From Streptomyces sp. RPT161 (GTDB lineage Bacteria > Actinomycetota > Actinomycetes > Streptomycetales > Streptomycetaceae), in NCBI RefSeq assembly GCF_027533845.1, contig NZ_JAPZVN010000007.1:186001-250000 (forward strand): a stretch of DNA of 64,000 nt, given 5' to 3'. The notes under the pieces were generated by a model, which saw only the letters and a program-made list of their open reading frames with translations, was not told the origin of the DNA and did no database searches. This document shows, piece after piece, positions 39,204 through 41,859 of the stretch. The position numbers were made by a program, and so were the translations under genes. The stretch's first letter is position 1, and each line of letters opens with the position of its first letter.

Positions 39204-40775
39204 TCAGCCGCCGAGGCTGGCTTCTTCCAGGTCGAGTGCGCGTTGGAGGCGGCGACGGGTGGTGTTGCTGATCTTGTTCGCCTCGTACAGGCGCTGGAGT
39301 TCGGCCGTTTCGACGGCGATCAGGGCGCGGCGTATCTCACGGTAGGCGTCGGCGGGTCGGGTCGCTGTGTCGTCGGTGTCGCCGTCGGTGCTGCTGTCGT
39401 CGTTGGCTTGTTGGATGCGGGCTTCGAGGTGGCGATGGAGTTGTTTGAGGGCGATCTGCGGTGCGGCGTCGGCGGTTTCGATCTGTTCCAGCTCCGCGAG
39501 GGCGGCCTGGGCGAGGTGGTGTCGTGCCTGGGCTTCTTCGCGAGCGGTGTGTTGGGGCTCCAGGGCGATGCCGGAGCGGCGGACGACGGGCGCGAGCGTG
39601 AAGCCCTGCACGACAAGGGTCAGCGCGATGGTGCCGGTGGTCAGTGTCAGGATCAGCGCCCGGTGCGGCAGCGGGGCGCCGGAGTGGGTGGTCAGCGGGA
39701 TGGACAGCGCCGCGGCCAGGGGCATCACGCCGCGGGTGCCGGCCCAGGACAGGACGGCCGGAACCCGCCAGGAGATGCGATTGTTGCCGCGCCGGTACTG
39801 CATGAGCGCGGAGAGCGGGAAGACCCACAGCAGGCGCAGTGCCAGCACGGTGAAGGCCACGGCGGGCACCCACAGCGGCCAGCCGCGCTCATCGGCGGCG
39901 AGCTCACGCACCTGGGTGGGAAGTTGCAGGCCGATGACGGCGAAGACGACGCTCTCCAGCAGGAAGACGACGGTGTCGTAGACGGCGTGGATCTGCAGCC
40001 GTATGGGGGCGTTGGTGAGTTTGTGGCCGGTGCTGCCGAGTATGACCCCGGCGACGATGACCGCGGTCACCCCGGAGGTGTGCAGGTCCTCGGCCAGCAC
40101 GTACGACGCGTACGGAGTGACCAGTGCGATGACCGTCTCCAGCACCGGGTCCTCGGTACGCCTGCGAACGAGCACCACCACCGCGGCGACGGCGCCGCCG
40201 AGGAGGGCCCCGCCACCGCCGAGCACGACGAACTGCCCGGCGGCCGAGGGGATGGACACCGCACTCGCGGTCACCGCCGTGGCCACCGCGACCTTGTACA
40301 GCACCAGCGAGGTGGCGTCGTTGAACAGACTCTCGGCCTGCACCATCGCCTGAACACGCGGCGGCAGCGACAGACGGCGCCCCAGCGCCGTCACGGCCAC
40401 GGGGTCCGTGCTGGCCAGGATCGCGCCCAGGACGAACGCGGTCGCGGGGGACAGCGGAGTGAGGGCCGAGGCGATCATGCCGACCGCTGCCGCCGAGGCC
40501 AGGACGAGGCCGAAGACCAGCACGGTCACCGGCCGCCACACCGCCCGCAGCTCCCGGCTGGACATCTCCTCGGCCGAGGCGTACAGCAGCGGCGGCAGCA
40601 CCAAGACGCTGATCACTTCGGGCGCGACGTGGATGTTCGGCACCCACGGCAGGAGTCCGATCCCGAGTCCGGCGACGACCAGCAGTGACGGGGCGGGAAG
40701 CCTCCAGTGCCGGGCCCCGGTCGCGACCGCCGTGGCCAGCACCACGAGCAGCAGGACGATGGTCAGGCCGGTCAT
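39204..40775 (-). CDS. Na+/H+ antiporter, CPA1 (NhaP) family
   Basis: 523 residues; GGGGGAG ribosome site. About twelve transmembrane segments from LTIVLLLVVLATAVATG onward. Ion-site motifs of CPA1: LPPLLYASAEEMS, GAILASTDPVAVTALGRR (the S/TDP motif) and VQAESLFNDATSLVLYKVAVATA (the ND motif). A gating helix with WAGTRGVMPLAAALSIPL is also present. A soluble cytoplasmic tail of about 110 residues follows. It exchanges Na+ or K+ for protons in pH and salt homeostasis. Confidence 0.93.
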   Translation of the reverse strand: MTGLTIVLLLVVLATAVATGARHWRLPAPSLLVVAGLGIGLLPWVPNIHVAPEVISVLVLPPLLYASAEEMSSRELRAVWRPVTVLVFGLVLASAAAVGMIASALTPLSPATAFVLGAILASTDPVAVTALGRRLSLPPRVQAMVQAESLFNDATSLVLYKVAVATAVTASAVSIPSAAGQFVVLGGGGALLGGAVAAVVVLVRRRTEDPVLETVIALVTPYASYVLAEDLHTSGVTAVIVAGVILGSTGHKLTNAPIRLQIHAVYDTVVFLLESVVFAVIGLQLPTQVRELAADERGWPLWVPAVAFTVLALRLLWVFPLSALMQYRRGNNRISWRVPAVLSWAGTRGVMPLAAALSIPLTTHSGAPLPHRALILTLTTGTIALTLVVQGFTLAPVVRRSGIALEPQHTAREEAQARHHLAQAALAELEQIETADAAPQIALKQLHRHLEARIQQANDDSSTDGDTDDTATRPADAYREIRRALIAVETAELQRLYEANKISNTTRRRLQRALDLEEASLGG

Positions 40776-41134
40776 TGAACTCCCCCGTCGGTTACGCCGT
40801 ATAGCTCTTTACCGACCAGACTTCCCGGCACACCGATAAGAACCTTATAGGACTTTAACGGCCCTGACCTCTCGTGTTCCCGAAAGCACGTATCCGCACG
40901 TAGGTCCGGTCAAGCTGCGACCAAGGTCCTTGACGGGCGGCTGTGGGCCGGAAGGCGCGGCGGGTGGGGGCGGGGCATCCGGGGGAGCGTCGAACGCCCG
41001 AAGGCCGATGCCGCACTTGCCAATACATGCAGACGTAGCTATATGCTTACTCATGAATCCGCAGCGCGCCGCCATGTCGCCGTTGGGCCTACGTCTCACG
41101 GTCGGTGTGGCGCATATAGGAGAGGGAGTCCCCG
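40776..41134. other. Promoter gap of the antiporter and the His-rich gene
   Basis: Contains GATAAG-AAC-CTTAT (inverted repeat at 40836-40848) on the antiporter side and ATATGCTTAC (41041-41050) about 85 bases before the His-rich gene. A 22-codon frame at 41053 lacks similarity or a good ribosome site and is not called. Confidence 0.45.
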
Positions 41135-41437
41135 ATGTCTGCCGCAACGCTGCACCGCACCCACGAAGACCACCCCCACGCCCACGGAGAGGGCTGCGGG
41201 CACGTCGCCATCCCCCACGGCGATCACGTGGACTACGTGCACGACGCCCACATCCACCGGGTGCACGGTGATCATGTCGACGAGTGCGCGTCCGCTGAGC
41301 ACGCCGTCCACGAAGGCCACGAACACCGCCACGAGGCGGGGTGCGGTCACGTGGCCGTGCCGCACGAGGACCACGTCGACTACATCCACGATGGGCACCG
41401 CCACGCCAGCCACGGCGACCACTGGGATGACCACTGA
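41135..41437 (+). CDS. Histidine-rich small protein with internal duplication (candidate metal-binding protein)
   Basis: 100 residues, of which about 27 are His and many Asp/Glu. Two tandem copies of a unit of about 40 residues: GEGCGHVAIPHGDHVDYVHDAHIHRVHGDH and EAGCGHVAVPHEDHVDYIHDGHRHASHGDH, each with one Cys-Gly-His. No signal peptide or membrane helix, so cytosolic. The composition suits zinc, nickel or cobalt buffering. A GGAG ribosome site precedes the start and a strong terminator follows. The next gene is an ArsR/SmtB regulator with a zinc-type site, so the two probably form a metal-responsive unit. Confidence 0.8.
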   Translation: MSAATLHRTHEDHPHAHGEGCGHVAIPHGDHVDYVHDAHIHRVHGDHVDECASAEHAVHEGHEHRHEAGCGHVAVPHEDHVDYIHDGHRHASHGDHWDDH

Positions 41438-41454
41438 CGGACACAGCACGACAG

Positions 41455-41487
41455 GGGCGGGCCGGGGTCGATCACCCCGGCCCGCCC
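41455..41487 (+). terminator. Strong hairpin terminator after the His-rich gene
   Basis: A 14-bp perfect GC-rich stem (GGGCGGGCCGGGGT with its complement at 41474-41487) around a 5-base loop, 18 bases after the stop. It separates the His-rich gene from the arsR-like gene. Confidence 0.85.
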
Positions 41488-41542
41488 TCGTGTCATCTGG
41501 GCCTCGCCGAAGGGCAACTGAACTCCATTGCCATGTACTAAG

Positions 41543-41552
41543 GTATGCATAT
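41543..41552. promoter_or_regulatory. Candidate ArsR/SmtB half-operator overlapping the arsR start
   Basis: GTATGCATAT, whose complement ATATGCATAC nearly matches ATATGCTTAC at 41041-41050 upstream of the His-rich gene. The shared element on both promoters fits common zinc control; a full 12-2-12 repeat is not obvious. Confidence 0.4.
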
Positions 41553-41859
41553 GGCGATGGATCCGGACTTCGGGGAACCGCTGGCCGATCTGCGGGCGGC
41601 CAGCGAACTGCTGCGCGCGCTGGCCGCCCCCGTCCGCCTGGGGATCGTGCGCGAACTCTCCACCGGCCACCGGCGGGTCCACGAACTCGTCAACGCTCTC
41701 GGGGTGAGCCAGCCCCTGGTATCCCAGCACCTGCGGGTGCTGCGCACCTCGCGGATCGTCACTGCCCACCGCAAAGCCCGTGAGATCGAGTACTCCCTCA
41801 CCGACGAACACATCGCCCACATCGTCCTGGACGCCATCCGCCACGCCGCCGAGAACTGA
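41545..41859 (+). CDS. ArsR/SmtB family regulator with an alpha5 zinc site
   Basis: 104 residues from ATG 41545 (ATG 41551 is better spaced from TAAGG). Winged helix: LRALAAPVRLGIVRELSTG, VHELVNALGVSQPLVSQHLRVLRTSRIVTAHRKAREIEYSL. The C-terminal helix DEHIAHIVLDAIRHAAE has Asp, His(+2), His(+13) and Glu(+16), exactly the spacing of the SmtB/CzrA alpha5 zinc site (D104, H106, H117, E120 in SmtB). It lacks the CxC alpha3 site. So it should release DNA on Zn(II) or Co(II). TATGCATA overlaps the start codon and may be part of its operator. Confidence 0.88.
   Translation: MHMAMDPDFGEPLADLRAASELLRALAAPVRLGIVRELSTGHRRVHELVNALGVSQPLVSQHLRVLRTSRIVTAHRKAREIEYSLTDEHIAHIVLDAIRHAAEN

Follow-up and report, generated by a model that had tools for sequence, protein, structure and literature searches.

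A histidine-rich repeat protein and an SmtB-type regulator in Streptomyces sp. RPT161: a candidate zinc-homeostasis module

The two genes and their products

The window (the whole 64,000-nucleotide stretch of DNA that was analysed) contains on its forward strand a gene for a histidine-rich protein (P0001) followed by a gene for an ArsR/SmtB repressor (P0002), with both reading frames at the coordinates given in the initial annotation. The features of the locus, numbered from the first base of the window, are as follows:

41025–41050, + strand: operator-like element of the histidine-rich gene (ACATGCAGACGTAGCTATATGCTTAC), 84 nt upstream of the start codon
41041–41050, + strand: ATATGCTTAC of the initial annotation, located by pattern match
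41120–41128, + strand: likely ribosome-binding site of the P0001 gene (GAGAGGGAG), from the sequence
41135–41437, + strand: histidine-rich gene, P0001 (100 aa, 27 His and 3 Cys, two 45-residue copies)
41153–41287, + strand: repeat copy 1 of P0001 (residues 7–51)
41300–41434, + strand: repeat copy 2 of P0001 (residues 56–100)
41455–41487, + strand: strong GC hairpin between the P0001 and P0002 genes, a probable terminator, from folding
41519–41533, + strand: position of a Zur-box-like sequence, placed from relatives, with a weak match in the window (8 of 11 specified positions)
41528–41557, + strand: imperfect inverted repeat TTGCCATGTAC-N8-GCATATGGCGA over the arsR start, a probable SmtB operator (autoregulation)
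41545–41859, + strand: ArsR/SmtB repressor, P0002 (104 aa; alpha5 site D87, H89, H100, E103)

The initial annotation described a protein of about 100 residues with about 27 histidines directly upstream of the regulator, and the predicted product has 100 residues and exactly 27 histidines, with cysteines at positions 21, 51 and 70. The duplication noted at that stage is clear, with 28 of 45 positions identical between residues 7–51 and 56–100, although the unit is not 40 residues long as then proposed; it spans about 45 residues and recurs at an offset of 49. In both copies a run of histidines comes first and is followed by CGHVA.PH..H.D, so the CGH reported for each copy is indeed present as part of CGHVA.PH. 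Amongst 42 relatives of P0001, 26 of the 27 histidines and all three cysteines are invariant, as are seven of the 50 other residues and five of the 20 acidic ones, and dN/dS against relatives ranges from 0.11 to 0.34. Because the histidines and cysteines hold fixed positions, unlike those of a loose histidine tail, P0001 likely possesses a defined set of ligands.

P0001 has no match at an E value of 1 in Pfam, NCBIfam, PHROGs, or the PDB, and belongs to no curated family of histidine-rich nickel or zinc storage proteins in these collections. Nor does it resemble an SmtA-type metallothionein, having three cysteines to 27 histidines and no match in Pfam, NCBIfam, or the PDB. The predicted structure (pLDDT 58) displays only a beta pattern and is too uncertain for use; the top Foldseek match to this model has an E value of 0.9. 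Literature searches yielded no account of the repeat sequence, and no description of P0001 was found in the open-access publications searched, a scope that excludes most subscription journals. Papers on CobW proteins of Cupriavidus were considered as a possible description and rejected, since no passage on histidine was found in PMC11340326, and histidine stretches are treated in PMC2770081 solely within COG0523 and related GTPases.

P0002, for which 41545, 41551, and 41557 are candidate start codons, passes the cut-offs of the ArsR family (PF01022, 50.6 bits versus 22, 1.7e-13; NF033788, 80.1 bits versus 55, 7.7e-23). The zinc site recognized in the initial annotation is supported both in its residues and in its place: Asp87, His89 (+2), His100 (+13), and Glu103 (+16) have the exact SmtB spacing, and in an AlphaFold2 model (pLDDT 86, 23 aligned homologues) the last helix comprises residues 88–103 with D87 just before it, so that the ligands do not fall outside alpha5. 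In 24 aligned regulators D87, H89, and H100 are invariant and E103 is retained in at least 90%. The closest match is SmtB of Mycobacterium smegmatis (8qkf; sequence E value 1.8e-27, Foldseek 5e-10), ahead of NmtR, CzrA, and the SmtB of Synechococcus. P0002 resembles the SmtB of M. smegmatis and M. tuberculosis (Rv2358), with 57% identity over the fold and the same alpha5 ligands. It is also like CzrA of Staphylococcus aureus in its fold and alpha5 metal site, although only 32% identical; CzrA, which controls exporters, has a histidine at the position where P0002 and SmtB have a glutamate.

Control elements in the two promoters

The initial annotation had found ATATGC(A/T)TAC in both promoters, and the pattern matches exactly twice in the 64 kb, at 41041–41050 (+) and 41543–41552 (−), with 0.00 matches expected in shuffles. 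Its presence therefore stands, while its register does not: the two matches lie on opposite strands, and comparison of 33 orthologous loci demonstrates that the promoters share a longer element, TTGYCAYATGYTAATGT, in the same orientation. Across these loci the mean number of mismatches to TTGYCAYATGYTAATGT is 2.1 in the promoter of the histidine-rich gene and 1.3 in the arsR promoter, compared with 7.6–7.7 in shuffles. In the arsR promoter, TTGYCAYATGYTAATGT makes up the left-hand side of an inverted repeat, and the right arm (GCATATGGC) contains the reverse-strand match of the earlier pattern. The consensus of this promoter, TTGYCAYATGC-N8-GCATRTGRCAA, overlaps the start codon, so that the promoter of the regulator gene holds a putative operator in the form of an imperfect inverted repeat. 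One position co-varies between the two arms (T-A in 14 loci, C-G in 12, with seven exceptions amongst the 33; Fisher p = 0.001, a value that ignores the relatedness of the loci).

Upstream of the histidine-rich gene, CATGCNNNNATYGCYATATGYTRA occurs with at most three mismatches in all 33 ArsR-linked loci and in five of 49 unlinked loci (L004, L007, L011, L018, and L036), while none of 820 shuffles comes under five mismatches. As the consensus was built from the linked loci, some of its fit to them is by construction. More independent evidence comes from the five unlinked loci, all of which lie within the clade that holds nearly all of the ArsR-linked proteins. The idea of an operator-like element common to both promoters is borne out in this longer form. 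The copies in the window itself are less regular, with 6 and 3 mismatches out of 17. The element of the histidine-rich gene and the inverted repeat of arsR each occur once in the 7.7 Mb genome, and since a search of the whole genome at three mismatches found no further operator for either element, no wider regulon can be drawn.

The stretch holding the intergenic hairpin folds at −45.1 kcal/mol (z −6.5) and has no U tract; as the hairpin separates the two genes, each probably has its own transcript. Locus L004 carries a histidine-rich gene in a genome whose regulator seems to lie elsewhere (G007, L101), about 290 kb away on what seems to be one contig, as both loci are on contigs 727573 nt long, and the retention of the element in this promoter with the regulator apparently distant suggests action in trans. 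At about 4.4 kb in L103, a regulator that lacks a neighboring histidine-rich gene has a sequence resembling the element of that gene (ACATGCAGAGGTCACTATATTC) upstream, possibly the remnant of a lost gene.

Recurrence of the pair and a proposed mechanism

In 200 Streptomycetaceae genomes, the histidine-rich protein is found in 61 and the regulator (E value of 1e-20 or better) in 18, at 20 places. At 16 of these 20 places the regulator gene lies within approximately 0.5 kb downstream of the histidine-rich gene on the same strand, for which a rough binomial calculation that ignores the common ancestry of the pair gives a probability far below 1e-50; the functional pairing suggested in the initial annotation thus gains support. 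Three of the four solo regulators (L102, L103, and L104) instead adjoin a Fur/Zur-like gene, an assignment made by eye from similarity to scanned proteins. Given this company and the closest match to M. smegmatis SmtB, P0002 is well described as an SmtB. Plasmid records from Pantoea ananatis and Pediococcus damnosus, few in number, place an ArsR gene directly upstream of a histidine-rich gene, so that the regulator comes first, unlike in the window; these regulators are 35–38% identical to P0002 and keep D, H+2, H+13, and E+16. Many relatives of the histidine-rich gene lack a P0002-type regulator. A second, more distant ArsR protein (~40% identical where measured) is encoded directly upstream of the histidine-rich gene in L014, L021, L027, and L058, where it follows COG0523, WD40, and ferredoxin-like genes.

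From the sequence evidence we infer that P0002 binds DNA and responds to zinc and that P0001 binds and buffers zinc. It is very probable that the SmtB-type regulator controls both itself and the histidine-rich gene. A cytosolic zinc buffer would be the best reading of the composition, conservation, and genomic company of P0001, and a fairly probable one; the reading of the whole pair as a two-gene zinc-homeostasis module, an SmtB-controlled zinc buffer, is likewise probable. When cytosolic zinc is low, a P0002 dimer would bind the operators over its own promoter and that of the histidine-rich gene. As zinc fills the alpha5 sites (D87 and H89 of one chain, H100 and E103 of the other), the loaded repressor would leave the DNA and the histidine-rich protein would be made, which could then bind several zinc ions through its fixed histidines and cysteines and buffer or store them. 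Copies of P0001 type encoded in zinc-starvation clusters probably play a similar part there, as zinc buffers or reservoirs.

The nearest known system is smtB-smtA of Synechococcus PCC 7942, which encodes the zinc-responsive repressor SmtB and the metallothionein SmtA. In both loci the gene for a small cytosolic protein rich in metal ligands adjoins that of an ArsR/SmtB repressor whose alpha5 ligands are the same, and both have operator-like elements. P0001 differs from SmtA in being rich in histidine (27 His, 3 Cys) and in having no solved or annotated family; moreover, the two genes are arranged in tandem and not divergently, and relatives of P0001 are also present in zinc-starvation clusters. 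The pair is a locus of the smtB-smtA type in which a histidine-rich partner replaces the cysteine-rich one. To our knowledge, the storage of zinc by cytosolic proteins is well known from few bacteria, and a small soluble protein with near-invariant histidines and cysteines, linked to SmtB in one clade and to zinc-starvation clusters in others, would be a tractable subject for the study of bacterial zinc storage and release.

Zinc-starvation neighborhoods and alternative readings

A gene of a type associated with zinc starvation (COG0523 GTPase of the ZigA/MRF-like kind, type-B L31, paralogues of L28, S14, or S18, Znu-type ABC transporter, or Fur/Zur-like regulator) lies within four genes of the histidine-rich gene at 41 of 81 loci, a rough count based on a home-made gene finder and on labels for recurrent clusters alone. 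COG0523 genes are near 25 of about 80 loci and L31B near 10. Zur regulons are composed of genes of these types (PMC7174638, PMC5472717). The genome of the window contains a second copy of the histidine-rich gene (G000:C129, L109 5308–5607), for which no SmtB element is present at three mismatches and whose surroundings comprise a Fur/Zur-like gene, L31B, a COG0523 GTPase, and an S18 paralogue. This second copy and the relatives without a regulator do not by themselves fit a sponge for excess zinc; rather, their place amongst zinc-starvation genes ties the P0001 family to zinc homeostasis in both directions, beyond excess.

In M. smegmatis, SmtB is a zinc sensor that represses the zinc exporter ZitA (zitA), and the smtB-zur operon is repressed by SmtB jointly with Zur (PMC7174638). 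The present family is similar in that solo regulators adjoin Fur/Zur-like genes and the promoters of relatives contain a Zur-box-like sequence, and dissimilar in that the gene after P0002 is not zur, P0002 is coupled to a histidine-rich gene, and the Zur-box-like sequence of the window is degenerate. Relative to the motif obtained by ChIP for Zur of S. coelicolor (tGaNNatSatNNtCa; PMC5472717), the arsR promoters of relatives contain sequences such as TGGAAATCATTGTCA or CGAAAATCATTGTCA, with one to two mismatches, which overlap the operator or immediately precede it. At three mismatches or fewer, such a sequence is found in 31 of 33 relatives versus ~6% of shuffles, although part of this match (ATTGYCA) also belongs to the SmtB element and is to that extent not independent. 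The arsR promoter of the window has three mismatches (8 of 11 positions matching) and is a poor match to the Zur box. For the relatives it is plausible that Zur co-regulates the regulator gene as it does in M. smegmatis; for the strain of the window such control is not supported.

These neighborhoods also underlie an alternative in which P0001 is a zinc reservoir or chaperone for times of scarcity, when it would mainly supply COG0523 GTPases and zinc-dependent enzymes, and in which SmtB control, found in one clade, would only let it load in good times. The company of the family and of the second copy favors this idea, as do four unlinked genes preceded by a Zur-box-like site that has a single mismatch (L024, L045, L056, and L076; within 151 nt of the start, against a background of 1.2% of shuffles at two mismatches) and the precedent of the Zur-regulated CobW2 of C. 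metallidurans, described as a zinc-storage protein (PMC11340326). However, when up to two mismatches are allowed, no Zur box occurs in any of the 33 ArsR-linked promoters of histidine-rich genes, and some of the four sites may serve divergent neighbors; the reservoir is less likely than the SmtB-controlled buffer. Across the family, the genomic context speaks for the importance of both uptake of excess and a reserve for scarcity.

Storage of nickel or cobalt is improbable. Under this proposal P0002 would sense these metals as NmtR does and P0001 would hold nickel in the manner of Hpn-type proteins; histidine-rich proteins elsewhere do store nickel, and NmtR is the second-best relative of P0002 with a structure and has the D-H-H core of alpha5 in common with it. 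The zinc sensor SmtB is nevertheless closer (1.8e-27 versus 1.2e-13), the glutamate at +16 is an SmtB ligand, and the recurrent neighbors are zinc genes, with no nickel family recognized amongst the recurrent clusters. The cobalt option of the initial annotation likewise finds no specific support, as every neighbor that can be named indicates zinc. Mere chance adjacency with a coincidental shared element and no common control, to which the hairpin dividing the two transcripts might lend itself, is scarcely credible against the adjacency at 16 of 20 places and an element present in all 33 linked and five unlinked loci of the ArsR-linked clade.

Within the preferred reading of the pair as an SmtB-controlled zinc buffer, we raise one broader proposal, more tentatively: P0001 may represent an undescribed, widespread family of zinc-buffering "histidine metallothioneins" with some 30 fixed histidines and cysteines in two repeats, which would span Actinomycetota, Pseudomonadota, and Bacillota and be governed by opposite zinc regulators in different lineages, SmtB (excess) in a Streptomyces clade and Zur (starvation) elsewhere, with both kinds of regulation in this genome.

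Beside the pair, the window shows neither a zinc exporter nor a zinc importer, a point against the module. The gene divergent from the pair (39204–40775, −) encodes a CPA1 Na+/H+ antiporter (TIGR00831) with no visible link to zinc. A four-gene cluster recurs beside zinc-starvation genes at L109 7523–12355 (G000:C129) and at L046, L048, L053, L070, L102, L107, and L108, encoding a PLP decarboxylase, a cysteine-synthase-like protein whose C-terminal part is rhodanese-like, a class V aminotransferase, and a SAM methyltransferase; it is possibly a pathway for a zinc chelator.

Proteins annotated by PGAP as "zinc transporter permease" (CGH...HGDHVDY) have the same repeat unit as P0001 in a single copy and are about 50 residues long, and one-repeat proteins of this length and name are encoded in plasmid records H4, H5, H13, and H17. 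This name seems wrong for a protein that short and hydrophilic, and if the zinc role is correct, proteins now called "zinc transporter permease" or "hypothetical" would acquire a real function. A histidine-rich protein with 70% identity is also encoded in a human faecal sequence recorded as "Bacteriophage sp." (MT836058.1, 11448–11591, hit H18), possibly a bacterial contig mislabelled as phage.
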